Below are positions 16,566 through 62,181 of a stretch of 64,000 nt of DNA, piece after piece. The stretch is from Asparagopsis taxiformis. Its lineage: Eukaryota > Rhodophyta > Florideophyceae > Bonnemaisoniales > Bonnemaisoniaceae. The stretch spans positions 32,354 through 96,353 of the forward strand of contig JALQPE010000250.1 in assembly GCA_030407315.1 (NCBI GenBank). Direction: 5' to 3'. Position 1 is the first letter of the stretch; every line of letters starts with the position of its first letter. Under the pieces are notes generated by a model. It had not been told where the DNA came from and did no database searches. It worked only from the letters and a program-made list of their open reading frames with translations. Both the position numbers and the translations under genes were made by a program.

Positions 16566-19500
16566 CTACCCCATTCTTGGCGGATAGCCATTACACCGCA
16601 GAATTACGTGATAGTATCCACCATTATAGATTAACCTGCAGTGTTCGATCTTTTTCTCTTTCAGGAGAACTGTGCAATTTCCGTCTTGTTTGCATGCATG
16701 AACTGCTCCGGTTCTCCTCACCACTTTCGAAAGTTCAACTAGTTGTACCCGTCCGTATTCCTTCACACTATAGAGACCAGTGTTACCATCCATGTACATT
16801 CTCCTTGACACCACCCATAAGCGTGTATTATTTACACCGATAATTCCACATACCAGAAACACGCCAGCTTTCCCACTGAATCCCTTGGAAGAAACCAATG
16901 GTTCGTTGTCGACAAAGTCCTGATGGAGTTTATGATCCTCGCAAACTACTTGTATCACACTTCCAGCCCGCAGAATATTATGAGCATAGGATTTCCTTCT
17001 CATTCCACTTCTTTTCTGTTGTATAAATCTTGCGCGATCATATACGATTATTTCCTCGGAGACCAACAGCTCTTCAGTATTTTCCCCTGGAATGATAGCA
17101 TCGGACAGCATTGCTTTTCCCAACTCCACCTCTTTACTAAAAGCCATGGAGATACGACCAGCTCCTTCCCATCTTCGATCATTTTCTGTCCATGACGCAT
17201 TAACGCCTTTTCTTCCTGCCAAAAATTTCGAAACAGGATTCTGCAAAGCTTCCTTAATCCTTCTATCTGTCTCCAATGCGAACTTTTCCCAGAGCCTATC
17301 TGATTCATCAAGACGCAGAGCCTCGTGCCCCAGAAATAAACTTCGCATACTCCTCAACGTAGCGTCTTGTTTTTCGGAGCTGACAGGGATTTCATTCCGA
17401 CGGTCTCTTTCGCTTCTTTCAATCAGAGTCGCAATCCTGATTTGCCAATCCTGGCACAGTACATGTTCAATTGCTGTCACATAAGACCCGTGATTATTAT
17501 CTCGAGAGAGACAGCGCTTAAGTGGTTGATGGACGCTCTCTAGGACCATCTCTGATACAATAGAAACATGACCAAAAATGGGTATCGTATGCACAAAAAG
17601 TTCTAGCATTCGATGAAGATTTGGTTTGTCAAGAATCTTACCTGCTTCAGGATATTGAGTGCAGTACGAATGGACTGAACTAACATACCTAGTTGCCATT
17701 TTATGAAGTTTCTCGTTTCGAAGGGCTAGACCGCCATCTGAACAGTACGGAGCCGCCAATTGTCCGTCAATTTCCGTCTTGGGCCACCAGTATGTCTCAG
17801 AGACCAGGTTGGACAGTTCCTGGAGAAGTTGAACGCAGAATATGTCAACAAGTTCTGATTGCTGAAGGAAAACTCGTGAAGAAACAAGGAGAACACTAAA
17901 AACACCAGTAATTGTCATGCTGTTCAAACTCTTTCTCTGTATGTTATACACGCTTACCTGACGTTGCAGCCCGTTCGACCGTAACGCTCCGCATATAGTT
18001 ATGTCAACGGACATTCGAACCTCATCGGTAGTAAGGCGAGAGAAGCATAGGTCAAGTAAATTGCGAGCAAGACCCATGAATAGGTGATCTGGAGCCACTG
18101 CTGAGTTTCTGTAAGGATCGAAAATCCCTGAAACAACAGGAACATTTTGATTTGTCAGAGGAATCAGATGCCTCTTTTTCGACAGTTCATTGTGGAGCAT
18201 GAAGTAGGGTGACTCCTCAAGATAATCTACTCCTCCAGGTTTCATTCCTAGCAACTGCGCATCTCGAACCATAAAATTATTCTTCCTTACCGCTATGGTT
18301 CTTTGTGCACATCGAAATTGGGAAGGTCTCATCGAGTGCAAATCAGTTGAATACCCAAGAGCACTCCCAATGTCGTTTCGGCGTCTTGGAAATATGCAGT
18401 GAGTGCATGGAACGTTTGAAATATGTCCCATGACATCCACAGCGCTTGCTGCTGCAGGGTAATCAGCAACGCATGCAGTTACATCTATGAATGCTACCAA
18501 GTCGTCACCGTATGGACTCACACATTCAACTCCATTCACAGTACCCTCAACGAGGTCCTCGACAATATATTTCAATACTTTTGTTGAATTAACTCCTGGT
18601 GGTGTTACTGAAATAACACGTGTTGAGAATGGGGTGTTCCGGGCTGCGGAAGATAGACCCAACGGAACCATATAAACGCCACCGGCAGATCCTTGCGAAT
18701 ACAAAGACGAGGATGGGTTACAGTCATCATGGTAAAGCATCATTCGATATATTACGAAATTCTTTCCGTTTTCCAGACTCCCAGATACTGAATGCAATTT
18801 TGAGCAATGATCGATCTCGCGCTGAGGTGCAAGCTCATTTTCGATTTCATTTCGTAAAGAACTAGTCTGTACTTTTTTCGCAAACCCCACCACGGTACAT
18901 TCGTAGAGCAGGTTACAACTTGATATTTTTCCGAATCCTTCACCATCTGGATCTTGATCATTGGGTGTATCTCTCGAATTACTTTTAACTTCCATCCAGA
19001 TTAGTCGTTCCATATCATCCCTGTTACGACCCTTCCAGAATCGTGCAACAAAGTAACAAGAAGGATCTTGTTTTCCATCCCTGGGCGCATGGGACTCAGC
19101 GAAAGGATATATTGAAGCACAGAGATCGCCTGGTAAAACGGAAGGATATTTTGTATTCAATTGTTCGAGAAGTTCGGTGTTGTTCCCATCGTTCGTTCCA
19201 CTAGTACAAGATTGCATATTGGAGATTTTTCCACTAGAGTATAACGCACCCCTTCTCTTGTTTAAGCCCACTCTTCGTAGCTTCCGAGTCGGATAGTTAT
19301 GTTCTTTAGGCTGTTCAGATGAGAAACGTTGGGCGATTTCTTCGAACTGGATCCGCACTTCAGCGTCCAAGCTCTCGTTTGAATTCTTCTCTGAACTGGA
19401 AGAAATGTCGCATGTTCCGACCATCCAGACTGTTCCTATTTTCCCTGTTAACATCGTGACATTCTCTGCTGTAGATGGCTCCGAACATCGCCATCCATAC

Positions 19501-20342
19501 CTCTCAAGTGAAAAACCTTCAATTGTCGGTGGTAAACTTCTGCACGGAAAAGAAATAATGTCTCCTGGACAAGCTCTTTCAAGTCCTGAGGTACCCAGTA
19601 CATAAAATTGCCTGGAAGGAAGAGCAAAATTCTCCCTCATAGTTACTGCAGGCGATTTCTCAATCGAAGGCCCTTCCGTATCGGAATGCTTCTTGCATAT
19701 TTCTTCGAAGAACGTTAGAGTAGCGATATCCTTCCTCACCCACTCGGAAGGCAGTACAATTCTTACGGATTGTTTCCTCTGGTTCGGTGACGACAGAGCC
19801 TGGGGATCTCCGGAGTTCGATGTTCCAGTGACTGCTGATGATAATTCTGCACCAGTGCTCTGTTCAGAGGCCTCTACCTCCTGAAAGTTCGAAGTCGGGT
19901 GAAACTTGACCACATGAGACTTCGGAAAGCATACATCAAGAAGGCAATTCCATATCGAACCATGTATTGTTGAGTAAGATGGAAATGAATGAGAATCGTC
20001 TAGAGACCTTGCCAGTGAAATAAAAAGTTCATACTGTTTGACAGTGAAACGATCTATGCCTGAAACAGACAAGATTGAAAGCATTTTTGGCCAAGACAAT
20101 AGCGTTCTCAACTGTTTTTCCATTTCTTCAAGCATTTGAATCGTCCTTCCATCAGCATATTCTCCATTTATGCCTTTCTGAGTAGATTGATTTTCAGAGT
20201 TCCAGACATTTGACTGTTCATCGCTTTCATCCCCTTCTGAACACAGTAGTTCTCCATCTGATGAGTATGTTTCGTTCCATCTCGGTGAAGATTCATGGAT
20301 AGCGTTGGTGTTTTGTAACGTGTTGTGTGTGAGGAACGGCAA
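16566..20342 (-). CDS. CxxC-type DDE transposase of element 1 (Plavaka/KDZ/TNP2-like)
   Basis: Probable transposase that cuts and pastes the element. Numbering from the upstream open frame (about 1258 codons), the three RNase-H-fold acidic positions appear as follows. First D is in DVTACVADYPAAA (about 616-627), followed by a zinc-like PCTHCIFPRR insertion. The second is in APDHLFMGLARNLLD (about 750). The third is the E of VLESVHQPLKRCLS (about 935). The order D-Y/F-P, CxxC, DHL-xxGL, E-x2-H-x3-K is repeated in the element-2 transposase. Such CxxC insertions are known in KDZ and CACTA/Plavaka-type enzymes. The N-terminal part is acidic and variable. The frame opens without a good ATG (the first codon is TTG), so an upstream exon or frame change at about 20340 is likely. 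Confidence 0.7.
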   Translation of the reverse strand: MPFLTHNTLQNTNAIHESSPRWNETYSSDGELLCSEGDESDEQSNVWNSENQSTQKGINGEYADGRTIQMLEEMEKQLRTLLSWPKMLSILSVSGIDRFTVKQYELFISLARSLDDSHSFPSYSTIHGSIWNCLLDVCFPKSHVVKFHPTSNFQEVEASEQSTGAELSSAVTGTSNSGDPQALSSPNQRKQSVRIVLPSEWVRKDIATLTFFEEICKKHSDTEGPSIEKSPAVTMRENFALPSRQFYVLGTSGLERACPGDIISFPCRSLPPTIEGFSLERYGWRCSEPSTAENVTMLTGKIGTVWMVGTCDISSSSEKNSNESLDAEVRIQFEEIAQRFSSEQPKEHNYPTRKLRRVGLNKRRGALYSSGKISNMQSCTSGTNDGNNTELLEQLNTKYPSVLPGDLCASIYPFAESHAPRDGKQDPSCYFVARFWKGRNRDDMERLIWMEVKSNSRDTPNDQDPDGEGFGKISSCNLLYECTVVGFAKKVQTSSLRNEIENELAPQREIDHCSKLHSVSGSLENGKNFVIYRMMLYHDDCNPSSSLYSQGSAGGVYMVPLGLSSAARNTPFSTRVISVTPPGVNSTKVLKYIVEDLVEGTVNGVECVSPYGDDLVAFIDVTACVADYPAAASAVDVMGHISNVPCTHCIFPRRRNDIGSALGYSTDLHSMRPSQFRCAQRTIAVRKNNFMVRDAQLLGMKPGGVDYLEESPYFMLHNELSKKRHLIPLTNQNVPVVSGIFDPYRNSAVAPDHLFMGLARNLLDLCFSRLTTDEVRMSVDITICGALRSNGLQRQVSVYNIQRKSLNSMTITGVFSVLLVSSRVFLQQSELVDIFCVQLLQELSNLVSETYWWPKTEIDGQLAAPYCSDGGLALRNEKLHKMATRYVSSVHSYCTQYPEAGKILDKPNLHRMLELFVHTIPIFGHVSIVSEMVLESVHQPLKRCLSRDNNHGSYVTAIEHVLCQDWQIRIATLIERSERDRRNEIPVSSEKQDATLRSMRSLFLGHEALRLDESDRLWEKFALETDRRIKEALQNPVSKFLAGRKGVNASWTENDRRWEGAGRISMAFSKEVELGKAMLSDAIIPGENTEELLVSEEIIVYDRARFIQQKRSGMRRKSYAHNILRAGSVIQVVCEDHKLHQDFVDNEPLVSSKGFSGKAGVFLVCGIIGVNNTRLWVVSRRMYMDGNTGLYSVKEYGRVQLVELSKVVRRTGAVHACKQDGNCTVLLKEKKIEHCRLIYNGGYYHVILRCNGYPPRMG

Positions 20343-20623
20343 TTCAACGGGCTGTTCCTTTCGGTATCGAAGATAATCTCACAGGGATTTGAATCTTGGA
20401 TATATTGCCGCGCTGAGAAATTTTCTTTTCCTCGGGGAGATGTTTCGCCGCGAGGCAGAGGCATGGAATTCAGAGCAATAGACTGGGAGCGTCTGCGATC
20501 ATTGGGTTCGAGGCCTCGAAAAAGACTAGAATATTGTTGTTTACCTCCTGCAAGATCTTCCCATCCAGATCGAAGCGACCTTCTCCGACGTTCACGAAAG
20601 AGTTGAGGTTTGTGGCGCCCCAT
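20342..20623 (-). CDS. Probable N-terminal exon of the element-1 transposase
   Basis: An ATG-initiated frame begins MGRHKPQLFRERRRR at 20623. It is basic and runs through a polar region up to the point where the long transposase frame opens in another register. Its start, strand and position suit the missing N-terminus. Joining requires either a short intron or a one-base frame change near 20330-20345, and I cannot choose between them. The basic start could be a nuclear localisation signal. Confidence 0.4.
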
Positions 20624-21263
20624 CAAAGATGGGTGTGGCTGCGAACTTTGCAATTTCTCACAGTCTGAGACTCTTTTGGAAATGTGGGTATTCTAAATGT
20701 GTCTTGAAGAGCTTGTCCTCTTAGGATTGTGTAAAGTTTCTGCTGGCGTTGGGAGCCGGTCCGTCGTAAGGATCGTTACATGTTATTGGCAGATCACCAG
20801 TCATTTCTCTGTATAGAACTTCTATTTCAATTATTCTGTGCCACTTTTAGCCCTCGTCATATGGCTCTCCGGAGATGAATTCTGTCCTGTAGGCCATATT
20901 CTGTACATCCGGATATCTGCAGCCACGGACTCGAAACAATATCCGAAAACATACCCCTCATAAGCACAATGGATTCAAAAAGTAGAATTTCATTTAAAAA
21001 AATTAGCTACCTTGCCAATTTTAGAAGCAGGGTTGCAATTTAATGCAAAAAATTGATATATGTATATCTTCTCTTGCTCCTTCGTGAGCTTCTAGTCTGC
21101 CTACTGTAATTTCTCTCAATACCAAGCTTCACTCAAAATATGAACAGTAAACTTTTTAGACGTGCAGCTTTTCAATGCCATGAGATAAATATTGTGCAAG
21201 CTCCACTGGCTTTGCACCATACGGCCTTAGAGAAGTGTACTCTCCCTTACGACCTATTTCAAC
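20624..21263. promoter_or_regulatory. Divergent intergenic region of element 1
   Basis: This 640-bp AT-rich gap separates the minus-strand transposase from the plus-strand ParB-like gene, so it must hold both promoters. I see no repeat, palindrome or clear TATA box in it. Confidence 0.35.
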
Positions 21264-23063
21264 ATGCAAGCAGATCCAAAAGCCACTACTCGCAAAAGAC
21301 CTGGACAGTCCAATACGACGGATATGATGTCCACAACTTCCAGATTGCCCGCATCCGATGAACAGCATGAATCTCCGAAGCGCAGGACCGTTGCCCAAAA
21401 AGAGCCAAGGAAAGAAATCTCTCAATACGCACTTTCACAGAGTATAAATAAGCCCTGGACAACTCAGCATTTTTCTGAGTATTCAGCACAGCTCGAAACG
21501 ATATTCTCTCATGAAAACTCAATGGTGAACTTAATGCATTTAATACCTCATAGGTTGGTACCAGTAATGCTCTCGGAGGATGAGCTGTTGAAGCTTTCGC
21601 ATCCGCAACTTCCTTTGCGCAATGTTGACAGTGGACAAGTTCAGATGCTGAAGAGAAGTCTATTGGAAAGTGGTTGGTTGAATTACTCCGGTAAAATACT
21701 TGTCTGCCCAGTGCAACAACCACACAGCCGTCTCGACAGTGAATCAGACTGTACATCTTCTTCTCATGATACTGGACAGGAATGTAGATTCGAATTGATA
21801 GGTGGAGTGCAGCTTGTTGCTGCTTTTATGCAGCTGAGGAAAGAGACTACAGGGCCGAGAAACATACCTAATATGGATGCAGGAGTACCATGCACAATTT
21901 TTACACCATGTGGAGAACGTCATAAATCGAATCTAACCCCGTTAGAGAAAATAATGATTGGAGCAGTGAGCAATTTGGGGAACTACGGTACACGCGCTAT
22001 GTCATTCTCAGACAATATGTGCTTGTCACGTAGCTTTGTTGCAGAGTGTCTATATGAGTTTGGTAATGAAAGAACTGTGCTGGAGAGTGTCAGATCTGGC
22101 CAATTGCATTCTCATCTGTGGCCGCTACAGGCTTCAATCATTGACAGAGCGCAGAATGTTAGACTTATCGGCTACTGCCAGAGCTCAAAAACATTGAGAA
22201 GAGACTGTCCTGAATGGGATTCTGAGGTCATCGGAGGTACTGAACGTGTAACATCCAGTTTCAGAAAACGTCAAGCAGCCTACATCACTGCATCTATGGG
22301 GCTATTTGCTACTCCAATCGCATATCGAATTTCCATGGAGCAGTTCACATTTAACAACGTCAGACTGACATCAAAGTATTGGACAATGCAGAATTTTGGC
22401 CTGGACGTATTTACACGGGCTAACGATGAGGAGAAATGTGCTATGCTATTAGTTTTGTACCGAAGGGAGTGCAGTGGTAATCTGAACAGATTGGAGAGAT
22501 TGCCATCTCAGAAGACTGAAAATACAGTCAATGTTCTCTTCCAATTTGTTCACCATCTCCTGGCAGTTGCCAAGCAGTCCTTCCAAGGCTCGTTGGCTGC
22601 CAGAGGTTCAACTAGAAAACCAATCAGACTACATCACCTTCTTTGCTCTCGCCTGGATTCCCACCCACAACCATGTTTCCGGCGGTATTTACTTGTCGAT
22701 GTAGTCGTTTCATTTGCTCTTCTCTGGGGAACAGGTGACCAATACAATTCTAATGTTGCCAAAGCAAGGGTTGGTGAGGCTGCTTCGGTATGCAAACTGG
22801 GAAAATCTCATGCTCGTGATCCAAATTATTTTGACCCTGCAATATTCATGCGCAATGTTATCTCTGTTTCGAGCAAAAATGGTCAGTCTGAAACTAACGT
22901 TAATGAACCAGACAACAATGGAGACAGTAGTAATACAAGGTATCAGTTCGGAGGCGCTCCAAGGTTTCTGACCCTGCGTATATACCACCTTCGAAATACA
23001 CCGGGACAAAAAGACGTTTTTCATCAGCCTGTTTGGGGAAAAAATGGTCGTCCCAGGGTCTAA
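21264..23063 (+). CDS. ParB-like protein of element 1
   Basis: A 599-aa frame from a clear ATG. The region around residues 90-200 follows the ParB/Srx fold plan: a RNVDSGQVQMLKRSLLESG segment, which corresponds to the 'do these, then a new value' part, then FELIGGVQLVAAFMQL in the place of the ParB box. The box is degenerate: GGVQ replaces the DGxHR seen in the element-2 and element-3 proteins, so nuclease/CTPase chemistry may be lost. The rest is helical with no other recognised domain. It overlaps the next frame by 20 bases, next to an A6 run at 23039-23044. The element-2 homologue is one continuous frame across the same junction, which suggests these two are one protein. Confidence 0.55.
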   Translation: MQADPKATTRKRPGQSNTTDMMSTTSRLPASDEQHESPKRRTVAQKEPRKEISQYALSQSINKPWTTQHFSEYSAQLETIFSHENSMVNLMHLIPHRLVPVMLSEDELLKLSHPQLPLRNVDSGQVQMLKRSLLESGWLNYSGKILVCPVQQPHSRLDSESDCTSSSHDTGQECRFELIGGVQLVAAFMQLRKETTGPRNIPNMDAGVPCTIFTPCGERHKSNLTPLEKIMIGAVSNLGNYGTRAMSFSDNMCLSRSFVAECLYEFGNERTVLESVRSGQLHSHLWPLQASIIDRAQNVRLIGYCQSSKTLRRDCPEWDSEVIGGTERVTSSFRKRQAAYITASMGLFATPIAYRISMEQFTFNNVRLTSKYWTMQNFGLDVFTRANDEEKCAMLLVLYRRECSGNLNRLERLPSQKTENTVNVLFQFVHHLLAVAKQSFQGSLAARGSTRKPIRLHHLLCSRLDSHPQPCFRRYLLVDVVVSFALLWGTGDQYNSNVAKARVGEAASVCKLGKSHARDPNYFDPAIFMRNVISVSSKNGQSETNVNEPDNNGDSSNTRYQFGGAPRFLTLRIYHLRNTPGQKDVFHQPVWGKNGRPRV

Positions 23064-24048
23064 TGGGTCTGAATGTGATATTCTACCAAAGGTACCATGC
23101 ATCTCAGACCTCCCAACAGCGTGCTCGACTGATGCGAACTGGCAAGGTGTAGTATCCAAAACGGAAATGACTGCTATTCGGCAAGAAATTACAGCTTCTT
23201 GCGCAGCTCTATACCTTTTCCCATCATCTGATGTTGATCTGTCATTTAATGCTTTCCGGTTGCAAAGTATTGCTCGCTTGGAGCATAACGGATACATTTG
23301 TTTACCCGAAATAACAAAAGGCTCGCACATTTTCAAGGACATTGATTTCATTTTGAGCAAATGCACCATTGCATTTCCACGTAGTGGCGATACGAGTCCA
23401 TGGGTGATTCTGGGGGACGACGAAGATGAGAATAGTTCCCATGGTCATGATATTGAAGGAATTTATGTTGCTAACTTCGATGAAATGGATATGCCGGAAA
23501 CAGAATCTATTGAAAAATGTCTGCGGCGAGTGGAAGTCTATATTGGCGCTTTGGGAGAGAGCATAATAGAAGACAGGAACAATTCAAAACCTCTACGGTT
23601 TCCATCTGAAGGGATTGTTGCTATGCGAAGAACTAAAAATGCACCACGTCAAGCACCTCGAACCTGCTCCCCTGTTATTCCTTACAAGAATTCAAACACT
23701 GCCTGGTGCCCTTCTACGTTTGAAGCCCAATATGGAATATACATATCTGGACACGACTCATGTCATATGCGTGTATGGGACAAGAGTCATATAATGATGT
23801 TTGGACCTCATGAAATCGTCAGCAGTATAGCTGGTACACTCTCTTCCACAGTTATCGAGATTCCTCCATTCTCTATTTTTATCATTCGTGGCGACTTGCC
23901 ACACGCGGAACTTGGAATAGAAGATGCTGACCTGTACGCAATGAGTCAATCGCATGCCTATCTCTACACATCAATGCAGAGAGGAAAGGAGAACAAAGAA
24001 CACGTGTTCTATAGCTTCGAATATGACTTGCGTACACACGATATATAG
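23044..24048 (+). CDS. Double-stranded beta-helix oxygenase-like protein (ParB partner)
   Basis: A 334-aa frame beginning ATG in good context (AAAATGG), 20 bases before the ParB stop. RLEHNGYICLPEI (about residues 77-89) resembles the first strand of phytanoyl-hydroxylase-like 2-oxoglutarate oxygenases. IEIPPFSIFIIRGDLPHAEL (about 272-292) resembles the C-terminal strand where such enzymes place a metal-binding His. I cannot confidently assign the HxD pair; CHMRVWDKSH (about 240) is a weak candidate. If active, it could oxidise DNA bases or chromatin. It may equally be an inactive cupin-like fold. Translation may need re-initiation, a +1 shift or splicing. Confidence 0.45.
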   Translation: MVVPGSNGSECDILPKVPCISDLPTACSTDANWQGVVSKTEMTAIRQEITASCAALYLFPSSDVDLSFNAFRLQSIARLEHNGYICLPEITKGSHIFKDIDFILSKCTIAFPRSGDTSPWVILGDDEDENSSHGHDIEGIYVANFDEMDMPETESIEKCLRRVEVYIGALGESIIEDRNNSKPLRFPSEGIVAMRRTKNAPRQAPRTCSPVIPYKNSNTAWCPSTFEAQYGIYISGHDSCHMRVWDKSHIMMFGPHEIVSSIAGTLSSTVIEIPPFSIFIIRGDLPHAELGIEDADLYAMSQSHAYLYTSMQRGKENKEHVFYSFEYDLRTHDI

Positions 24049-24600
24049 CTCACCTCGAATCAAGGCACCTTAGCTCCAGGAGCATAGAGTCGGGTGTTTG
24101 CTAGGCAATGAAGCAATGATACTTCTGGAAGCAATTTGCAGTTTGGGAATGAGGGTCAAATACTGTGGGAAACTCACGCGCCGTTTCCATTCAATTAAAG
24201 AGGTAAGCCCAACGTGCCATTGATGCATTGAAGTAGTTGTGTGATTCAACTTTTATTCAGCAAAGGCAGGGGAGATATATCAGAGAGTGGATATTTTGGA
24301 TTACAAGTTATGATAGTACCTGAGTTTTGAATTTTCCAGCCAATTGAAATTGAATTTGTGTCCACATACGCTGAAAGCTGTCTATCCATCACCAACACAT
24401 TCCGGCAGGGGTTGCAGAACAGTATCACACTTGCGACGGGTTGAATATGTCCATTACGGCTCGTGCTACATCTACTATCCAACTGATTATAGGATCCCAT
24501 ACTTGCGGGTTTCCGAAACAAAAAGTTCTTGCAATCTGCGCGCCTCGGTTTGCACACTCTTCACACGACCGCGAAGTTGTAAAACATATCCAACTGGACT
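24049..24600. other. Intergenic, nothing recognised
   Basis: No conserved frame or repeat seen between the oxygenase-like ORF and the haloperoxidase pseudogene. Confidence 0.4.
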
Positions 24601-34301: not shown

Positions 34302-34339
34302 TACGGGTCCTAGTCGGCCCCGAGATTTACTAGAACAAA

Positions 34340-48232: not shown

Positions 48233-48500
48233 ACACATCAAGGACACTGCCTGCTTCACGCCACCTCGTCAGGTTTCGAGAGCCCGACTCGGGCCCGTTC
48301 CGAACGGACACTCACATCTCGATTGCCTGTCTTGCATTCCAGCGGTCACGATAGGTGTGTACCTAACAAAATTTCGGTTGTATTGTGTTATTATTTCCAG
48401 CGATTGGCGTTCACGACCATTCTTCAACGTGAAACATACCATCCACATCACTCGAATACGTCAACGTCAACCATCTCTTTTCCTTTCCAACTCAACAACC

Positions 48501-51803: not shown

Positions 51804-52122
51804 TACTTGTTCCATGTAGATGGTGGATCATGTTCCAGCAATAGAAGCCATGGGCGTGTTGATAAATTACTGCGTGACATATTAAATATGAATTAGTATA
51901 TGAATAATAGTTTAAAGAGATGAAATTGAAAAATTTGGATTGAATAGTGTGGTACGTCACGGATTATTTATGGAGTCGGAGCGGAAATTTTGGGAATGAA
52001 TAGTTTGCAGAAGGCTAGAAGCAGTAAATCCATGGAAGAGCTGCTGAATACTCCCCTATTCTCTGGCATGGAGTAGTACCGTGCACGGAGAGCAGAGACT
52101 ATTGCATGGGCAACATATGTAG
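51804..52122. other. Junction between element 2 and the left repeat of element 3
   Basis: AT-rich, no gene. The terminal inverted repeat of element 3 is demonstrable from 52123 only because the window ends at 64000. It may really start further left, possibly inside the end of the ParB-like gene. Confidence 0.4.
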
Positions 52123-54361
52123 TGTAGTACGGGCGAAGTTTAAAGTTCCTCAAAATGAGGCTATTTTGAAACACAATAAAATTTCTAAACATATTCATGA
52201 AATACTGTACCAGAGCTGGGATGTAATGATCTCAAAAACATTTGATTTTAAATTTATTGTATTCCAGCCGTACAATGTTGGATAGCCATACCGCCATACT
52301 ATCTGTACGTGGCTGTAATGAACTTATCCGCCGCCGTGCCTCCAGTGGCACAACATGGAGAGACATTTTTGTCCTCATGAATGGCTCCTTGCACCTTTCC
52401 AGTTGAAACTGGAAAGCAACATTGCATTATGGTGAGTTCATCATAGAACGTGGCACTATTACTCATGGAAGAGTCGAATTGGCCGTGCGTGGCGATCATG
52501 TTCGTGAACATTTCCAGTGGCATTGTCGGCAGCTTCGAAATTTACTGTTACAGTGTCTTAGGACATCTAGCGGAAGTTTAAAAGTTCACATACATTCTTG
52601 GGAAGCATTTGTGCGCGAGGGAGGAAGATCTTCCTACATCGCTATGTATTCTGAAGCGGATCAATTGCATACGATTCGGTGCTGATGAGCAGCTGATCAA
52701 GGTTCGTAAAGAGCGAGCTACGATACGAAAACTATCTGTACTGGGAGTCTATGACAGTGAGCAAGCTTGCGTTGAAGGTTAACTGTGCACGTGTATTGGT
52801 ACTGCAAGTGAGTACAACTGCCGAGGTGTGTATCAATGGGAATCATGAAAGAACTGATCACTGGTCACACAATTTTTATACACAATGATAGGACAGGTTT
52901 CCAGGGAGCATTTCTGCGCGAGGAAGCAGTGATTGATTATGAATCAATGCAACTGAAAAACGATCTATGGTGGAGAAAAGTTATCCAAGATTTGTCCATT
53001 TATATTGTGAAAGGAGTACGATGCACGCAAAATCATTGCAGTAAATGTGCAAACGAATACACGCTTCGAAGGATAAATACTACTAACGTGTCTTTCTGCT
53101 CCAAAAACTACAGCAGTTAAAGTGTATGGGAAGATCGTGAGCTATCCCCAATATTTATATGTATATGCACATGCCGTGGTATTACGGAAATCTGGAAGCA
53201 CCGATCGTCATATTAATGTAAGACTGTGTGCTAGTATTTACAAGCGCACTCGGTCGTGAACAAGAATCCTTCAAGATCGCTGCAGTGATTGTATCATGAT
53301 GTTAGCGTCTATACAATTGTATGACCTCAGTACGCTTCCCTTCTTCCGTAAGCAATTGTTTATATGCTAGCAAAGGACTAACGAACGAAAGCCTATGTAT
53401 ACTCAGTCATCAATGCAGTACATCATAGTCCATATTTGACTACTTTCCATGTGCTGTTTACGTGTTGCTGGCCTAATACTTGTCTGCTTGAAGTGGACAA
53501 TTCAGGTTCCACATCAGGTGACAGATGGGATTCCAACACATATTCTCATGTGTGAGAGAGAGAGAGAGCTATGCGCACACTGTGACACACATATTGATAG
53601 ATACTGCAGGAAGGTTCTGTGCACTTGGAGAAGTGGGAAATGCCGAATAGATACGTTCACTCATAGGTGTGAAGTGATCGAAAAGTCCTGCAGATGAATC
53701 TGATTTCAACGTAACAACAGAGATATCTATAGTATCAGCTTTACATCAACATATCGAAAATGCACTGTCCATTTCATGATGAGCCGACTAGATGCAGTTC
53801 GAACTGATCGGCAACCTGGACTCAACATATTGTAGCTACTCATAAAATGAACACAACAACTGAACTTCTATCTTGTACTAAATTTCGGTTTGCTCCGTTT
53901 ACGTATCTACCAGCTGAGCCTTTTTCCATGCCATGCGAACTATTAGTCTGCACTTTCTGTAAACGAAATCTCATTTGCATCCCAAGCGTAGAATGACGGA
54001 CCAAGCTCCCCTAGCGAAGAAGGTGGGGTTTCTACACCAGTGGAAGGGTAATTGTATGGTAGTTGTGCCTTGTTTTCGTCGATCCTGACCTTATAAATGA
54101 CAACTAGACATTGTCCCATAGGTGAAAAATCTGCCAGATTCGTACCGTGAAGTATGCGTCGCACTGTAGACTTCTCCTCAGGACCAGGTGGTGCAAGCTG
54201 ACCAAGCCCCACAACCTCCCCTTCGACCAACAGTTTCACATCACACCCAGGACGCAGCTTCTCACCTATTGAGACATACTGGTTTGTGACTTGCTGTTGT
54301 TGCAGAGCTGCAGTGCTTCCATTTACTGCGTCTTCCTCAGGCAAGACCACATTGGAGGATG
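52123..54361 (+). repeat. Left terminal inverted repeat of element 3
   Basis: About 2.24 kb that is the reverse complement of 61763-64000. All four small translated frames compared and the 138-codon methyltransferase tail are identical in the two arms; the one difference I found is an extra C at about 52211. It contains no gene of its own but includes the C-terminal coding part of the ParB-methyltransferase gene. The inner edge is sharp at CATCCTCC (54354-54361). Confidence 0.95.
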
Positions 54362-57101
54362 GGTTGTTTGTTGTTGTAGAACGGATGCAGGATCCCGGAG
54401 ACTGATCCGTCTTGTACCTCTTCGCAGGAGGAGTAGTAAATATATGACGGGACCTGTGGCACTTCTTGGCATTATTAGAATGCAGAGAGATAGCTCTTTG
54501 ACGCAGCCGCTCATGCGCAATCCTGAAACATTCAGGGTCTTTTTCAATACTAATGCATTTTCGTCTTGTCGCTAAGCATGACAGAGCTGTAGTGAGTGTT
54601 CCTGCATAGGCGTCCAGTAAGGAACCCCCCTCTGGACAGAAGGTGGTAAGAAGCTCTGTCAACAGATCAACACTCTTCTCTTCCACTCTGACTGTCAGCT
54701 TTTTCCCTGGTACTTTCAGCTTATTCTTAGCCACTGGGACATTGATTAGTGCAGAGAATCTCCTTGGAAGCGGACATGGTATAATATGATATGGACTTTC
54801 AAAGTCTGGCTCGAACCCTTGGGGATGATTACCCCCCTTCCGAGCCACAACTCCATACTCACAAATATTTTGAGGAAAGGATGAGATACGATGGAATTGG
54901 ATCCTTTTAGGACACTTCGTTATGGTATAAACGTGGCTCATAGCACGGAAACCTGAATCTCGCAGCGCACTAATCCACTTCTGTAAGAATCTCACTGACG
55001 AAAATATGAAGACGAAGCCACCACTTTTCAAAATGCGGTGTGCAAACTGACAAAACTGATGTATCTCTTTGTCGTCCAGCACGTCACAATAGTTCTGTCC
55101 AGTGCCAGATGCGTTTGGCTCCAACCCGTAAGGCGGGTCTGTTAGAATCATGTCAAGTAGAGGATCGTCCAACTTACGGATTCTACGGTCATAATCTTGC
55201 CATCGCATTTGGTGGCTTTCAATACCGTACTCATTCAAAAGCTTGTTTGGACATATCTTATCAATCCAATCGGAAGTTTTCAATGATTTTTGGTTCTTGG
55301 AAATAGATGGGAGAGTTGTTTTCAGACGTTCAGAGGTCTCTGTGAGCTGTCCGGCTTCGGCATTCTTCCCTATCATGGAGCTTCCATGCTCATGATTCAT
55401 TTTGGAGTTTTCAGAGCTCTGTATATCACTGAGATCGGGAGCAGGATGGAATTCAGAAGGTCCTTGCCCTGGAGATTCTCTGCTTTTGTTAGAGTCTCCT
55501 GGTGTGCACTCCGAACCGAATTCGATGGGGGGATCCGGATTTGTGAGGCCTTCATCATCGATATGAGGTGCTGAGGATAGATCCACACCCACTCTACCAT
55601 CACCGATCACTGATTTGCCCTGTGTGTCACACCTTAATGCATTTGGTTGGCTGATGGAGTCATTCCGTGAGTTTTCTTGTTTGCTTGGTTGGAAAGTAGC
55701 CTTGTACTTAGCCTGTTTGATAGGTGCCAGCGAGGGATACAACTTGAAGTAAATGTCAAGAAGGAATGGCAATATGTCATCGTCATTTCCGCTATTCTCT
55801 TCAACCTCATTGTCCAGACGAGTGGATCTAAGTAGATTTTCATGTGCAGCCTCCATGTCTGTTGGCCAAGTTTCGCTTTCGATGAAAGCTTCAAACTTGC
55901 GGGCTTCACCTAAAGCTTTAGAAGCTCGCTTGAATTGCTCCGTAACTGTGGTGTGCTGTACCGGCTTGTAGCATCTCTCTTGACATGCTTCCCGAAGTCT
56001 GTAAAGTGTGTGTATCTGGATCTCTTCTCCTTCATCACCATCTGCTTTCATGAACACAGTGGACTGCTTTAGAGAGGAAATGTTGATAAACTTCCGGAAT
56101 ACTCTGCAGTCCACCTTAGCGGTAATTGACTCCATGGATACCATAGGATCCATATTATCACGTTTCGAAAGCTGATCTGCTGCTATCTCAGTCAGCTCTT
56201 CATTCATTATAGCGCCGATTGTGTCAATTACCTTGTGAGAGAGACGAGCAGCTGTTGCCGCTATTTGTTTCAGTGTGCTTTCTTTCGTATGAGTTGCACC
56301 ATCATAAGCTGCAGCAACGTCTGCCATCGTTACTTTCTTAACACTTTTCTCTCCTTTCAAACGGTCATGTTCTTCGCGGAGGCCAGATAGAACATCGAAA
56401 AAAGTCGGCTCAATGTAATACTCGCTTGAGTGCTTCGTGTTCTGCGATCTGGCCAATTGTTTCAAGGTTTGCAATGGAAAGCCTCCACTTAGAAGAGTAA
56501 CTGGCCATCGAAAGCTCTCCCACCGTTTCTTTATGTCTTCGTCCTCATGATTCATGAGCTGAATGATTGCCTCGTGACGGTGAACACCATCTACAACCCC
56601 ATACCACTCTGATCTTGATTCAATTTTTTCCTTCACTTCTTCTGACGATAGTCCCAAACCTCGGAAATAATCTGAGACATGGTGGCGATGTGCTCCTGTG
56701 AGCGGCATTATGATAGCTGAGTCCGAGCCGGCTGTGAAACCTGTTCTCACGAAAATAGCTTTGAGGCGGTCAACTCCTGACCTGGAGACGGGTCGTATTT
56801 TTGTCATTGGCACACAAGCTTGAGGATCCACGGTGGTGTTTACAGAATTTTCCATCACAACACCGAAGCGCAGCACTTCTGGGGCCCGTTCAAGGTCCTG
56901 ATCTTCAAGCTGATTAGGAGCAGGGGAATGTACATTAGGGAGTTTGGAATGTTTGACCATATTTCTCTCCTTGGAACTAAGGGTTTGGGAGGAAGACCTT
57001 CCATCATTCCGACTATTACCGCCCTTTCTCAGCTTCGAATCACGCTTGGACCGATACATAGACGAAGATCGAGGAGGTCTTAGTTGCATCTCCGTATTCA
57101 A
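53943..57101 (-). CDS. ParB-DNA methyltransferase fusion of element 3
   Basis: 1052 aa from ATG. A basic N-terminus is followed by a ParB-like domain with box GVVDGVHRHEAIIQL (about 168-182) and long helices to about 420. After an acidic polar linker comes a permuted beta-type DNA methyltransferase: motif IV MILTDPPYGLEPN (about 650-662), then VFIFSSVRFLQKWI, then motif I GSLLDAYAGTLTTALSC (about 823-839). The catalytic DPPY is intact; motif I has AYAG where DPFxG is usual. The last 110 residues (SIGEKLRPGCDVKLLVEGEV, VIYKVRIDE, FYAWDANEI) resemble the small beta domain called DUF8039 in plant transposon proteins. The fusion ties together functions that are separate genes in element 2. Its 3' end lies inside the left terminal repeat. 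Confidence 0.82.
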   Translation of the reverse strand: MNTEMQLRPPRSSSMYRSKRDSKLRKGGNSRNDGRSSSQTLSSKERNMVKHSKLPNVHSPAPNQLEDQDLERAPEVLRFGVVMENSVNTTVDPQACVPMTKIRPVSRSGVDRLKAIFVRTGFTAGSDSAIIMPLTGAHRHHVSDYFRGLGLSSEEVKEKIESRSEWYGVVDGVHRHEAIIQLMNHEDEDIKKRWESFRWPVTLLSGGFPLQTLKQLARSQNTKHSSEYYIEPTFFDVLSGLREEHDRLKGEKSVKKVTMADVAAAYDGATHTKESTLKQIAATAARLSHKVIDTIGAIMNEELTEIAADQLSKRDNMDPMVSMESITAKVDCRVFRKFINISSLKQSTVFMKADGDEGEEIQIHTLYRLREACQERCYKPVQHTTVTEQFKRASKALGEARKFEAFIESETWPTDMEAAHENLLRSTRLDNEVEENSGNDDDILPFLLDIYFKLYPSLAPIKQAKYKATFQPSKQENSRNDSISQPNALRCDTQGKSVIGDGRVGVDLSSAPHIDDEGLTNPDPPIEFGSECTPGDSNKSRESPGQGPSEFHPAPDLSDIQSSENSKMNHEHGSSMIGKNAEAGQLTETSERLKTTLPSISKNQKSLKTSDWIDKICPNKLLNEYGIESHQMRWQDYDRRIRKLDDPLLDMILTDPPYGLEPNASGTGQNYCDVLDDKEIHQFCQFAHRILKSGGFVFIFSSVRFLQKWISALRDSGFRAMSHVYTITKCPKRIQFHRISSFPQNICEYGVVARKGGNHPQGFEPDFESPYHIIPCPLPRRFSALINVPVAKNKLKVPGKKLTVRVEEKSVDLLTELLTTFCPEGGSLLDAYAGTLTTALSCLATRRKCISIEKDPECFRIAHERLRQRAISLHSNNAKKCHRSRHIFTTPPAKRYKTDQSPGSCIRSTTTNNPSSNVVLPEEDAVNGSTAALQQQQVTNQYVSIGEKLRPGCDVKLLVEGEVVGLGQLAPPGPEEKSTVRRILHGTNLADFSPMGQCLVVIYKVRIDENKAQLPYNYPSTGVETPPSSLGELGPSFYAWDANEISFTESAD

Positions 57102-59235
57102 CTAATCGATGATCTCAGTAGCTCAGCCAAAAAGGGATGCGTAAAACTGAAAATTGGTTTTGGAAAGGGAATTGCTTGTGGGACCCTTGACTGTTTTGAG
57201 AAACCGGAAATTATGCCCAAGCAACGTACAGATGTGTTCAATTAGTTGAATCGTTCTCACCAGGAGATGCTGAGATGGTAGCGAAGTTTTGCGTTCAAGA
57301 AGCTTGATGATATTCTGGAGGATGTGCCTGGGTTCATTAGCATCGGGTATCTTATTTATACCGAGTTCACTCAGGCGTTTCAGAATAAGAGACCTCATGT
57401 ACTGGGCCTCATTACTGTTGAAGTGTGATTCAACCTAAGGTTTTTCTGAGGTCGGAGAACTATCTCGGAAAACTGCCTCTCAGTACCATTTCATTTAGTC
57501 CCGTATGACAAATCAACTTTGAGAAATGGATAGAAAACTGTGCCTCATGCCGCCCTGATAGGCCTTTCTTTACGCCAGATATTAGGTATGACGAATCTCC
57601 ACTTGCACATACAGGCGTGAGTCGCACTACTCTGCAGAGCACTGCATACGGTGTAAAGCACTTTTAATCTTACGCTCCGCCGACCAGTCTTCATCTATCA
57701 GTTTTAATCAAGTCCGTTGTGTAGATCTCCATTACGGTTGTGACCACGCGGAAATTCATGTGCGCAATATATATGATTGAGTTCTGTAAGGATTAGTCCT
57801 AGAGGTGCTTTCAGTTGTGGCAGTATGAAATATTTCCTCCGATTTTCGGTTCAGAAACCATATTGATGCTCGGACATGATATTGTGAACCTTTGTCACTT
57901 GACATCTCAGAGATTTAGGATACCGACAAGCTCAAGATGTTCCAATCTTGATAGCTAGTGATTTCTTCTATGTCCGTTTCAGGATTACTGGGTAGCCACT
58001 GAAAAAAATTGCAGTAAAGGCCAAGGGCCTAAAGCATGCAACTTACTGATGAGTTCGTCTGCCATAAAGACGTTACGCTTTCGTTTCAATCTGTGGAGTA
58101 CGGATTTACGTATTCATTCAACTCGCTTCATTCAGACACGTATATGTTATGAAACATCGCTGTACTTCACCTACCAGTCCCGAATTATACGGCATTGGGA
58201 TAAGACATTGGACAAATCAATGTCGAGACAGAACGACACTGAGCTGACACGTTTTGAGATTTGAATCATCGACTGTACTTTGAGATTTTTTGTCTGTCTA
58301 GTTCTTGTCACAAAACGTCTTCCAAATGTGCTTCCAGGGTTCCTGATAACAGACATGTACAAGCTTGATGTGTGGGATTTGTCATATCACGCAGAGTTCA
58401 AGCTCCAGATCACCTACCCGGACACTTCATCGTGGGCACGTGGCGATCTGGCCCAAATGTTTTCCTTTTTTCTAACTATGGATTAGTATCGAACAATAAA
58501 CACTGCACTGGTCAAGTGGCCCAGGATCCCATCTCAATTTGAGTATCAATATAGACTTATTGTTATGAACCAATCAGGACTATTTTTGTGTAGAAAACAG
58601 TTCGTAAGTCGCTCCGAATTCCCCATTCTATATTGATCTATTCAAAGAACGTCAGATCATATCCATTTTTTTACTTCCTTTTCGGGCAGTCTGCTGCGCC
58701 GTGATAAGAGTTCAATTGAAAGTTGACGACATCAAACCTGTATTCACATGTTTCTCTGTCCTGCTCTAGAACGAACTGTAAAAGATTATCAGTATCCGAA
58801 TATAGTTATACTGTGCAGGATATTTGGCTCGACCTGTCTAGTAGGTAGAGGGCAATATCACTTGAATGATCATGACAACGTCTAAGTCATGAACCCTAAA
58901 TGCCTCCAATATGCTTCAGCCGAGAATATTGCGTAATCGCTTCTTCGACAGACAATGAATGGCACCAAATCACACTCTCAACCATGATTGGTCATTTCAG
59001 ACATGAACGTGTCAATTCCGAGGCTTCATGAGCTAGAAAGAGAATTTCTTCTTTAGCGAGATTCTATCACAGGTTGGAGATAGTATAAGATATGCATCTT
59101 TTTCGCAGTTGAGGGGACCTTTACGATTCTGCGATCGTGCAAGACAATTCTATTTCACCTAACAAGATCTCCAACTTTCCCTTTGAGAAAGGCAAGAAAT
59201 ATTTCCAGCAGACTGTCGATCGTTTTGAGAAGAAA
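57102..59235. promoter_or_regulatory. Divergent intergenic region of element 3
   Basis: 2.1 kb between divergent genes, AT-rich. A minus-strand ORF at 57123-57398 (91 codons, helical, starting MRSLILKRLSELGINK) ends 22 bp before the ParB-methyltransferase ATG and could be a small upstream protein or exon, with low certainty. Nothing else recognised. Confidence 0.35.
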
Positions 59236-61650
59236 ATGGGGGATTCAATAGCATCCATCGGTCTGAGTTCTTTATCAGACACCTTGTTAAGTGGTTCGGA
59301 CTCAGAGGAATTATCTCAAGCTTCGCTGAAGGACGATTATATGACTAATGGCAGGCCTCCCAGTCACTTCAGTGATAATGTAAACTGGCATGAAGAAGAG
59401 TACGAATCATTCAATCGTTTTGAGTACAAGGGGGGAAACAACGCCAACAATCGTTCGTATAGGTTCAATCATCGCAGGAAATCCTCGGAGCCATCGGCGT
59501 CAACACTTCTCAAACGAAGAATAGAGGCTGCAGAAATCCTTTCGGCAGAAGACTTCAAGCTCATCCAATGCTGCAAGCGATTGAAGTGTTTCAAACGAGC
59601 AGATTCACGTTTCCTCAAACGAAAAATTGGTGCATTCTCCAGGATGACCAATGCACAAAGACGAGAATGCCTCACCGAGATGCTTCGTTTCAAAAGATCT
59701 ACTGAAGGAACCAGGAAGGTTTTTTATTTCGATGGAAGAACTGTATGTGCTAACTTCTTGAGCAAAGCCTTTAAGATATCTCGAGATTTACAATGTTCTA
59801 TCAAACGGACCAGATGTACCATCTCAAAAAGAAATGCCAAGTTGCAAAGAGGTTCATTAGATGTTCAATGTGTGCAGAAGGACTCTATTGTTACGTTCTT
59901 GTGTCGTCTTGCGGAAACAACAGGGTCAAAGATGCCTGACAGGACTGAGGCACACTTGCCCTTCTTCAAAAAGTCTGAAGTCTATCTGCGCTTCAAGGAA
60001 GAGCATGTGTTGCTTCATTCCACTGTGCCACCCTCTTCCTCTTACTTTTTGTATGTCTGGAAGCGTGAATGCCCTTCTATAAAGGTCCGGAAAGTTACGC
60101 GTTTTGCTAAATGCGATGAATGTGAGGATATGAGAGCTGCTCTTCTGCTGAACTCAGTACCTGGCCGTTCTACATCAGCAATCCTGTCCAGAAGGAAGCG
60201 TCATGTAGAAATGGTTTCGAGGGAAAGACGGGAGTACCAAACCAAAATAGAGAGATCAATTCTTCATCCCTCGCAATATCTTTCAATATGTATTGATGGA
60301 GCAGATCAGAGTGCTTTTGGTCTACCTCATTTTGCTGTGAATACGAAAAGAACTCGTGGAAGGGCGTTGCGCATCAAGTTGATTGGAGTCCTTGAGCATA
60401 GTACAGAGAAGAAATTACACCTCTACACAATGTCGGAGGAGTTCGAAACTGGGGCGAACCATATTATAGAGTGCATCCACCGGTTTCTCAACGACAGGCA
60501 ACGCATAGGAGCTCTTCCCCCAACATTTTATGTGCAACTCGACAACTGTAGCAGGGAGAACAAGAATAGATACTTGTTTGCATTCCTGGAGAGTCTGGTG
60601 GCATGGAAGGTATTTGATGAGGTCCACGCTTCATTTTTGCCCGTGGGTCATACTCACTCTGATATCGACCAATGCTTCAGCTGCACCTCTAGGAGACTCC
60701 GTTCCAATGACGCAGTAACCCTTTCAGAACTTCACTCTCAGCTCCGATTGTCATACAGTCCTCCTCCAACAGTATGTAATATTCGTCATATCGCAAACTT
60801 TTCCGGTCTCTGCAACACAGGAAAAAACCTCAGCAAGGTGAACAAGTTTAGTGACTATCAGTATTTCAAGTTCAACAGAACAAAAGAGTCGGATGGGATG
60901 GATGGCAGTGGCACCGTTTGCCATGTTAAAACTTTGAGCCATCAAAATTGGATGCTGCTGGGAGAAGGAAAAGTTCATATAGACTCGTTTCTCAAAAGCG
61001 TTCCAGATCTTAGCGATACTCCCGAGACAAGAATAAGATGCCCTGACGGGTCTCATCAAGTTGAACTACGGTTCAGATCTGAAGAAGGACGTATCAATTC
61101 TATGGCCAAAATGGTAACCCTTCGTCAGCTTGCCTCTGATGTTTTCCAGTCCAGAGTGGACCCGTTTCATTGGAACTTGAACACATGTGTGGAACTAAAA
61201 CGTTGGCGATCTGGAGAACCTGTCTCTGCAGAGCTCCCGAACTTCGTAAGTACTGATGATATATATTCACCAGAGCAAATCCAAAATAGATACGGTTATG
61301 AGCTCAACCGATTTGTTGCTGTACACCCCGAGACTCGTACAGACGCATGCCCGTTTTGGATAGGGCGGATATGTCAAATTCTGAAAGACTTCCAAGGAAA
61401 TGCTGCAAGTCTGGAAGTGCATTGGTACGAGCCTCTGACAGGGAGAGATGTGTTTCGGAGCAAATACAGTCCATCCTACTTGACATCCGATCCGTCGAAA
61501 ACGCCGAAACCCTGGCGTGATTTCATACCGACAGACTCTGTCATAGCTGAGTTTGATACGTTGACTATTAAGGGGGAGCTCAGAATGAGTGTCGTCAAAC
61601 TTCTTAGAAATACCTTCAGTGTGGAGGGCAAATATCTAACTCTGAGTTAA
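59236..61650 (+). CDS. RNase-H-fold transposase of element 3 (DUF7869-like)
   Basis: About 804 aa from the first ATG; the frame is open 33 codons further upstream but without an ATG. The N-terminal region has a Cys-rich helix (LIQCCKRLKCFKRADSRF) and a conserved-looking FYFDGRTVCANFLSKAF. The catalytic core reads YLSICIDGADQSAFGLP (D about 354), FYVQLDNCSRENKNRY (D about 436) and FLPVGHTHSDIDQCFS (about 469-484). The LDN and VGHTHxDID motifs are typical of a transposase/integrase-like family in eukaryotes (DUF7869). It differs from the CxxC enzymes of elements 1 and 2. The C-terminus (PFWIGRICQI, LEVHWYEP) looks like a Tudor/BAH-type barrel. It is intact and presumably mobilises element 3. 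Confidence 0.75.
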   Translation: MGDSIASIGLSSLSDTLLSGSDSEELSQASLKDDYMTNGRPPSHFSDNVNWHEEEYESFNRFEYKGGNNANNRSYRFNHRRKSSEPSASTLLKRRIEAAEILSAEDFKLIQCCKRLKCFKRADSRFLKRKIGAFSRMTNAQRRECLTEMLRFKRSTEGTRKVFYFDGRTVCANFLSKAFKISRDLQCSIKRTRCTISKRNAKLQRGSLDVQCVQKDSIVTFLCRLAETTGSKMPDRTEAHLPFFKKSEVYLRFKEEHVLLHSTVPPSSSYFLYVWKRECPSIKVRKVTRFAKCDECEDMRAALLLNSVPGRSTSAILSRRKRHVEMVSRERREYQTKIERSILHPSQYLSICIDGADQSAFGLPHFAVNTKRTRGRALRIKLIGVLEHSTEKKLHLYTMSEEFETGANHIIECIHRFLNDRQRIGALPPTFYVQLDNCSRENKNRYLFAFLESLVAWKVFDEVHASFLPVGHTHSDIDQCFSCTSRRLRSNDAVTLSELHSQLRLSYSPPPTVCNIRHIANFSGLCNTGKNLSKVNKFSDYQYFKFNRTKESDGMDGSGTVCHVKTLSHQNWMLLGEGKVHIDSFLKSVPDLSDTPETRIRCPDGSHQVELRFRSEEGRINSMAKMVTLRQLASDVFQSRVDPFHWNLNTCVELKRWRSGEPVSAELPNFVSTDDIYSPEQIQNRYGYELNRFVAVHPETRTDACPFWIGRICQILKDFQGNAASLEVHWYEPLTGRDVFRSKYSPSYLTSDPSKTPKPWRDFIPTDSVIAEFDTLTIKGELRMSVVKLLRNTFSVEGKYLTLS

Positions 61651-61698
61651 TGTCCACTTGAAGGAGATTTCAGAACTTCAGAAGAAAGAACTCTTCTA

Positions 61699-62181
61699 TT
61701 GGTTTTTAATGCTTCTCAAAAGTACTACCGTATGATTCCACATCCTGTAACGCGAAAGAACTCATCCTCCAATGTGGTCTTGCCTGAGGAAGACGCAGTA
61801 AATGGAAGCACTGCAGCTCTGCAACAACAGCAAGTCACAAACCAGTATGTCTCAATAGGTGAGAAGCTGCGTCCTGGGTGTGATGTGAAACTGTTGGTCG
61901 AAGGGGAGGTTGTGGGGCTTGGTCAGCTTGCACCACCTGGTCCTGAGGAGAAGTCTACAGTGCGACGCATACTTCACGGTACGAATCTGGCAGATTTTTC
62001 ACCTATGGGACAATGTCTAGTTGTCATTTATAAGGTCAGGATCGACGAAAACAAGGCACAACTACCATACAATTACCCTTCCACTGGTGTAGAAACCCCA
62101 CCTTCTTCGCTAGGGGAGCTTGGTCCGTCATTCTACGCTTGGGATGCAAATGAGATTTCGTTTACAGAAAGTGCAGACTAA
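61699..62181 (+). pseudogene. Duplicated C-terminal fragment of the ParB-methyltransferase
   Basis: From 61763 the frame is identical in sequence to the last 138 codons of the 53943-57101 gene and ends with the same stop. The first 21 codons are unrelated. It lacks ParB and catalytic parts and exists because the terminal inverted repeat extends into the gene. If translated it would yield only the small DUF8039-like domain. Confidence 0.85.

Follow-up and report, generated by a model that had tools for sequence, protein, structure and literature searches.

Two of the three transposons in a 64,000-nucleotide stretch of the genome of the red alga Asparagopsis taxiformis (contig JALQPE010000250.1, positions 32,354 to 96,353; hereafter the window) combine a transposase or presumed transposase gene with genes for a putative ParB-like protein and a predicted DNA methyltransferase. 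We judge the chances evenly balanced that these are DNA transposons carrying a self-marking module that would benefit them against host silencing. The window makes up the last 64 kb of its contig, which is 96,353 bases long; the whole genome amounts to 141.5 Mb in 3156 contigs. It holds three separate transposons (elements 1, 2 and 3), nested or adjoining, as an earlier reading made from the letters alone (the sequence-only reading) had claimed, and each has copies elsewhere that share its termini; copies share both ends of element 3 and the left end only of element 2. The elements are real, recurrent and recently mobile, and the functions we propose for their genes are deduced from sequence. 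All counts from genome searches are lower bounds, since only the best-ranked candidates were scored. Four proteins carry the argument: the ParB-like/methyltransferase fusion of element 3 (P0001), its 59%-identical relative L019, the free ParB-like protein of element 2 (P0002) and the methyltransferase-SET protein of element 2 (P0003). The features of elements 3 and 2 are as follows.

51694..64000, no strand: element 3, a DUF7869 transposon with a 4-bp target-site duplication (TSD); right end beyond the contig end
53943..57101, minus strand: ParB-like/DNA methyltransferase fusion (P0001), 1052 amino acids; PF01555 E = 4.2e-14; DGVH motif
about 55662-56867, about 54483-55184 and about 53964-54263, minus strand: ParB-like part, methyltransferase and tail domain of P0001
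59137..61650, plus strand: DUF7869 protein, presumed element 3 transposase; PF25273 E = 2e-51
51694..54369, no strand: left terminal inverted repeat (TIR) of element 3, about 2.7 kb, from the inverted-repeat match and copies elsewhere
61755..64000, no strand: right TIR of element 3, incomplete, 100% complementary to the left TIR
34258..51693, no strand: element 2, a giant Plavaka element, its right side interrupted by element 3
36718..39756, plus strand: Plavaka transposase, 1012 amino acids; PF18759 E = 1.4e-23
42769..45966, minus strand: methyltransferase-SET fusion (P0003), 1065 amino acids; PF01555 E = 3e-15, PF00856 E = 1e-6
43645-44466 and 42793-43242, minus strand: methyltransferase and SET domains of P0003
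48501..51693, plus strand: free ParB-like gene (P0002), first ATG at 48501; DGLHR at about 49278-49496, tail-type domain at 48573-48875
34383..34820, no strand: subterminal repeats of 43 bp (4.2 copies) and 24 bp (5.6 copies)

The fusion of a ParB-like part to a DPPY methyltransferase, first described for element 3 from the letters alone, holds up at domain level. The methyltransferase domain of P0001 matches PF01555 (E = 4e-14; 53.5 bits against a cut-off of 26.7), with DPPY at residue 655 and DGVH at residue 171, and all nine P0001 family members match the same model at E ≤ 10 (best 1.3e-16). DPPY is intact in both window methyltransferases. The closest family matches are the adenine-specific PRK11524 and CcrM, with DpnA in PDB; together with the order of DPPY before motif I, judged by eye, these matches indicate a beta-class adenine methyltransferase, probably N6-adenine, with N4-cytosine as the alternative. 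The P0001 gene is present at 100% identity over its full length at 13 scored places, the window's counted, and relatives at about 60, 50, 42 and 33% identity lie elsewhere in the genome.

Genes of this kind are recurrently paired with DUF7869 genes. We compared 44 ParB-like/methyltransferase places, the scored matches left after removal of 6 fragment rows, with the best 150 of 502 DUF7869 candidates and the best 123 of 1208 Plavaka candidates. A DUF7869 gene lies head-to-head within 5 kb at no fewer than 27 of the 44 places, the window's among them, against a chance expectation of about 1% per place calculated from the number of DUF7869 genes scored, a result that favours the association with transposases proposed earlier. 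Identical copies are not independent, and different families are represented by the spacing classes: about 2.50 kb (3 places), 2.90-2.92 kb (3), 2.99 kb (4), 3.26 kb (15), 3.31 kb (1) and 3.37 kb (1). The same head-to-head layout recurs at about 3.69 kb at 7 of 12 places of the family of about 33% identity. Among the Plavaka genes scored, none lies within 10 kb of any of the 44 places. Comparison of P0001 with L019 gave a proportion of non-synonymous differences (pN) of 0.196 in the ParB-like part and 0.185 in the methyltransferase, against 0.37 in the tail and 0.60 in the linker, the synonymous proportion (pS) being saturated. The low pN of the two domains relative to the linker means that both parts were kept by selection over that divergence, demonstrating, at the level of codon comparison, purifying selection on both domains in the element 3 family.

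Copies elsewhere define the ends of element 3 precisely. The sequence AACTCTGC is the terminus at both ends of the copies on C2197, C1974, C351 and C1689, and all four copies are flanked by 4-bp TSDs (AACG, CACG, CCTG and TCGT, respectively). Copies elsewhere reach window position 51694 with the terminus AACTCTGCTTTAGAGG, and a 2159-nt perfect inverted repeat proved to be the inner portion of the longer TIR. Complete copies are about 12.7 kb long. An open reading frame (ORF) at 61699-62181 lies mostly within the right TIR and duplicates the last 142 codons of the ParB-like/methyltransferase gene. Sola2 likewise has a 4-bp TSD (PMC3627910, in the part covered), the feature that our comparison of element 3 with Sola covered. 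Element 3 inserted into element 2 at 51693. A separate copy on C351 (about 1110 and 13436) sits inside an element 2-type methyltransferase-SET gene, its flanks corresponding to P0003 residues 297-312 and 312-409 at 96-100% identity.

Element 2 joins a related module to another transposase. Its Plavaka domain (PF18759, 84.1 bits against a cut-off of 26.3) and the DUF7869 protein of element 3 are distinguished by Pfam, consistent with the earlier claim of at least two kinds of transposase. The divergent arrangement of a ParB-like and a methyltransferase-SET gene, also claimed earlier, is confirmed, with both P0003 domains above cut-off (PF01555 E = 3e-15; SET E = 1e-6, 29.5 bits against 22.4). 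The left end is marked by 35 of 95 DNA match rows that start at query positions 750-762, 23 of them at 759, which corresponds to window 34258; 6 of the 95 continue without a break as far as the query reaches, a point immediately ahead of the Plavaka gene. The right end is absent from the contig. The subterminal repeats inside the left end are a candidate transposase-binding region. The P0002 ORF is cut at residue 1112 (51693) because element 3 inserted there, and the last 36 or so residues of the window ORF are element 3 TIR sequence. Sequences 97-98% identical to P0002 occur at 39 further scored places (with the window's, 40 out of 3142 candidates) and match to residue 1122 or so only; 31 full-span copies elsewhere have open frames of 1229-1417 codons, with internal stops in 5 of the 31. 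Among the 40 places, at least 8 have a scored methyltransferase on the same contig, always divergent. Six of these lie no more than 5 kb away, one is at 8.5 kb on C286, where the score places the methyltransferase in the other family, and one is at 68.5 kb. All three genes (Plavaka, methyltransferase-SET and ParB-like) are present in the copy on C136, and their joint presence there and in the window indicates that the three move as one element, at least in those copies.

The union of a DNA methyltransferase with a SET domain is itself repeated across the genome. At E ≤ 10 the SET domain has 35 PDB matches (best E = 0.0018): 33 bear names of the SET/lysine methyltransferase or HRX-like kind, and the other 2 are Legionella-type effectors or named so. 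The P0003 gene is found full length at about 100% identity at 43 places, the window's counted (best 43 of 4137 candidates). At least 9 of these copies have a Plavaka gene, in all 9 convergent and 4625-4640 nt away (4618 nt in the window). A second methyltransferase-SET family comprises 78 of the 150 scored N6_N4_Mtase places, L061 included, all 78 being assigned to it by one shared score; the fusion is the commonest kind among the 150. Fourteen of 30 loci read show homology to P0003 (L045-L049 and L053-L061; E between 3e-22 and 1e-47, over alignments of up to 892 columns), and L059, of the second family, has a SET domain (E = 3e-6). On the one copy of this family read upstream, C132, a ParB partner is absent from the 4.5 kb covered, which hold instead two genes related to a divergent accessory pair of element 1 (E = 2e-5 and 2e-4 by tblastn). 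This pair beside a methyltransferase-SET gene suggests that modules are shared between element lineages. Inverted repeats of the ACAGTAAAATTTACTGT type cluster near the same gene on C132 (L085, 4220-4501).

We assessed the ParB relationship by profile comparison with shuffled controls, using seven aligned bacterial ParB/RepB proteins (L001, L086-L091) as the reference profile. DGxH is present in 9 of 9 P0001 family members; P0012 and P0013, public-data relatives without DPPY, keep DGxH in the ParB-like part. Two segments align, in the right order, between the element 3 family and the bacterial proteins: a DGxHR segment (E = 0.099, with 2 of 100 shuffles scoring as well) and a helix-turn-helix-like segment (E = 0.023, with 0 of 100). 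P0002 in turn resembles the element 3 family (0 of 40 shuffles as good; E = 0.036 at full length and 0.011 for a cut piece, whose best shuffle reached 0.013). These comparisons point to a weak ParB relationship of elements 3 and 2. The two systems are further linked by a common tail domain: the C-terminal tail found in P0001 and its relatives has a counterpart in P0002 residues 73-173 (BLAST E = 2e-7 with L019 and 1e-4 and 1.4e-5 with P0001; hhalign 92%, E = 6.5e-7), in the order ParB-like, methyltransferase, tail in the fused protein and tail, ParB-like in the free one. The ORF of element 1 that had been called ParB gave a mixed result, matching the bacterial proteins at E = 0.043 with 0 of 40 shuffles as good and the element 3 family no better than 21 of 40 shuffles. 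A ParB-like protein beside a transposase in all three elements, as the sequence-only reading had it, is therefore retained for elements 2 and 3, with a weak ParB relationship, and stays unproven for element 1; the same division applies to the idea of a recurrent module joined to different transposases, which related methyltransferases and the common tail support in elements 2 and 3.

The likeness to bacterial ParB/RepB, a DGxHR-like motif and then a helix-turn-helix-like segment in the element 3 family, comes with two differences, the lack of Pfam-level similarity and of a partner ATPase among the window ORFs scanned. No Pfam ParB model matches the candidate of any of the three elements, and ParB_N has a single place genome-wide. 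That place, L001 on C1526, encodes a canonical plasmid RepB/ParB with 61% identity to Palleronia, an alphaproteobacterium, and the contig probably entered the assembly through bacterial contamination. The Pfam survey for ParB that the sequence-only reading had proposed would therefore miss the ParB-like genes of the elements. Among scored candidates from a set of 5.8 billion proteins, the element 2 ParB-like protein had no homologue at E ≤ 0.001. Searches found no viral relatives of the ParB-like/methyltransferase protein or of the probable contaminant RepB. In a phage search, 204 records were retrieved with P0001, the 20 listed matching the methyltransferase half only, and P0002 matched none.

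Element 2 also contains four exact copies of a 16-bp perfect palindrome, TGTGCCGTACGGCACA, none assigned to a strand.

42412..42427: palindrome site 1
46412..46427: palindrome site 2
47591..47606: palindrome site 3
48074..48089: palindrome site 4

Sites 2 to 4 fall in the gap that separates the divergent ParB-like and methyltransferase-SET genes. In the genome the exact palindrome occurs 6301 times and its reversed control 0 times, and 9024 sites are reached with at most one mismatch; the high number stems from amplification of elements rather than independent origin. Across the four window copies there is complete identity in the palindrome, in the 7 bases that precede it and in a second, 38-base inverted-repeat segment, while the 85 bases preceding the palindrome (those 7 included) average 81% identity. 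When ten further copies, selected by exact palindrome, are added, the means are 100% for the palindrome, 98% for the 7 bases, 99.6% for the 38-base segment and 86% for the 85 bases. Bacterial parS is also 16 bp long, and the palindrome is a candidate regulatory or ParB-like binding site, as judged from its sequence and position, a site for Plavaka or a host factor being equally possible.

Starting from the observed mobility, the conserved gene pairing and the intact DPPY of the two window enzymes, we infer the following scheme. Each of elements 2 and 3 would carry its own transposase gene plus a self-marking module, in which the ParB-like protein would bind sites in the element's own DNA and bring to it a beta-class DNA methyltransferase, probably one that methylates N6 of adenine. 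In element 3 the methyltransferase would act as part of the ParB-like protein; in element 2 it would come from a divergent gene of its own, and its fusion to SET might let DNA and a histone (or another lysine substrate) be marked together. The likeliest benefit would be active or protected chromatin, permitting transcription and transposition despite host silencing. That the module marks or recognises the element's own DNA is plausible from sequence. We regard as unlikely the narrower version in which the ParB-like protein loads onto the palindrome as onto parS and recruits the DNA-adenine and histone-lysine methylating enzyme, so that copies would acquire a common element-specific chromatin mark.

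Several observations weigh against self-marking. The ParB-like proteins of elements 2 and 3 have no match to ParB in Pfam, NCBIfam or PDB, a PHROG ParB-like family is reached at E = 0.25 in 1 of 9 family members, and P0002 has no match to bacterial ParB (E = 0.4, against 0.12 for the best of 30 shuffles). DPPY is absent from 2 of 8 database relatives of the ParB-like/methyltransferase protein. Recent copies are too alike to reveal constraint, with ratios of non-synonymous to synonymous change (dN/dS) of 0.7-1.1 among L019, L020 and L023; the ratio is 0.59 for L024-L029. Among the candidates scored, 17 of the 44 ParB-like/methyltransferase places have no head-to-head DUF7869 within 5 kb, two of them having a nearby DUF7869 on the same strand and two a DUF7869 at about 14 kb, and 34 of the 43 methyltransferase-SET places have no partner Plavaka. 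A search of element 3 found no comparable repeated palindrome, and position is what connects the ParB-like protein to the palindrome, with binding as a prediction.

Other explanations account for part of the evidence. The module may act in transposition itself, methylated ends or palindromes tuning transposase binding or hemimethylated DNA coupling excision to replication, a role that Dam plays for Tn10. The recurrent head-to-head pairing with DUF7869, the CcrM/DpnA-like methyltransferase and the position of the tail of the ParB-like/methyltransferase gene inside the TIR would all suit such a role; nevertheless the element 2 palindromes lie 8-14 kb inside the left end, the subterminal repeats there being others, and a SET fusion would indicate chromatin rather than cleavage timing, and we think this role rather unlikely. 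A site for the Plavaka transposase or a host regulator, unrelated to ParB, is a tentative but appreciable possibility for the palindrome, one compatible with self-marking through other sites. It draws support from the distance between the palindrome and the point where the Plavaka domain match begins, 5205-5212 nt in the window and on C26 and C11 (on C11 the spacing suggests that the methyltransferase interval is missing), yet three of the four window copies sit well away from the left end, in the promoter region between the divergent ParB-like and methyltransferase-SET genes.

The palindromes beside the ParB-like gene could alternatively be a multi-site parS-like array on which that protein serves partition or cohesion, clustering or tethering copies, with methylation secondary. 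We consider this very unlikely: a general Pfam scan of 20 distinct window ORFs, with no dedicated search, found no ParA-like ATPase, there is no evidence of episomes, and element 3 has no such array. Equally improbable in our estimation is that the genes are captured cargo of no use to the element. Giant algal elements do often bear varied accessory genes (PMC12477816, in the passages covered), but families that have diverged from one another show the pairing again, and both domains have a low pN, so that selection disfavours this explanation.

The general theme is already in print. A gene for a ParB-like/N4C-N6A methyltransferase is described in the transposon Sola1-1_Ec32 of Ectocarpus together with a self-marking hypothesis (PMC12477816), so the passages covered on algal ParB-methyltransferase transposon proteins anticipate the main inference of the sequence-only reading. 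Element 3, with its putative ParB-like/methyltransferase gene, invites the same hypothesis; it differs in length (about 12.7 kb against 21.5 kb) and in a protein that Pfam names DUF7869, and a SET-bearing split form does not figure in those passages. The red alga Bostrychia has giant EnSpm elements that carry accessory genes, known to us by citation (Petroll et al. 2025, cited in PMC12477816); they may be the closest relatives of elements 1 and 2 described so far. Several fungal DNA transposon lineages, including Plavaka and EnSpm, carry TET/JBP genes, read as anti-silencing in the part of PMC12730594 covered. There too, different transposase lineages bear the same kind of DNA-modifying enzyme, and CMCT transposases and mostly CA..TG termini are listed as a further likeness; TET/JBP, however, oxidizes 5-methylcytosine, whereas adenine or N4-cytosine methylation plus SET is predicted here. 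SET genes are likewise transposon-borne in oomycete HarbingerS and MuDR elements (cited in PMC12730594), where the passage covered describes no fusion to a DNA methyltransferase. Our literature search, which left preprints and most subscription papers outside, found no publication on a methyltransferase-SET fusion in transposons, on a split ParB-like/methyltransferase arrangement with a common tail domain or on the repeated palindrome array. Self-marking is thus a known theme in algal transposons, and the new form here is probably the presence of DNA- and chromatin-marking enzymes in one protein. If the proposal is true, it adds a further route, besides fungal TET/JBP, by which transposons write their own epigenetic state, and provides a natural sequence-directed writer of N6-methyladenine in eukaryotes. 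With a candidate site and intact genes in repeated copies, self-marking can be tested directly.

Element 1, which lies to the left of element 2, is a real low-copy element.

15121..33459, no strand: element 1, with EnSpm-like termini CACTGCGTA...TACGCAGTG; ends common to other copies
16566..20378, minus strand: large ORF, probable transposase; PCxxC motif by eye
21264..23063, plus strand: ORF earlier labelled ParB; weak
23044..24048, plus strand: ORF earlier labelled oxygenase; unproven
28741-30846, minus strand, and 31588-33190, plus strand: divergent accessory gene pair, with relatives on C132

Copies on C398, C2796, C795, C2797, C2798 and C768 are 94-99% identical in the matched pieces; C398, C2796 and C795 share the right end at 33459, and C398 and C2798 the left end at 15121. 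The 9-bp CACTGCGTA is inverted at 15121 and 33459 and recurs at all five ends read in other copies. These are 5'-CAC..GTG-3' termini as in EnSpm/CACTA, with CACTG ends. Flanking repeats are ACAC or AC in the window and TG on C398, neither being the 3 bp of EnSpm/CACTA, and the large ORF resembles EnSpm transposase at motif level only (E = 2.6). The domain libraries tried name neither this ORF nor the supposed ParB and oxygenase. The former had no homologue at E ≤ 0.001 among 4986 candidates from the 5.8-billion protein set and the latter lacks support in Pfam, NCBIfam and PDB, so the earlier picture of a ParB gene overlapping an oxygenase is left without domain support.

We also considered 12131-33816 as the extent of element 1, on the strength of an inverted repeat with a 36-nt perfect end, and rejected it because copies end at 15121 and 33459. 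That inverted pair, 12131-12343 and 33609-33816, lies outside the true ends of element 1, and next after its right copy comes a coiled-coil-like ORF (33840-34301), which is broken by element 2. Copies on C2798, C2797 and C768 have an insertion of about 806 bases with a 5-bp duplication at a site corresponding to window 20092-20096, which is empty in the window. Apart from all three elements, a reverse-transcriptase fragment lies at window 8021-9154 (PF00078, E = 2e-7).

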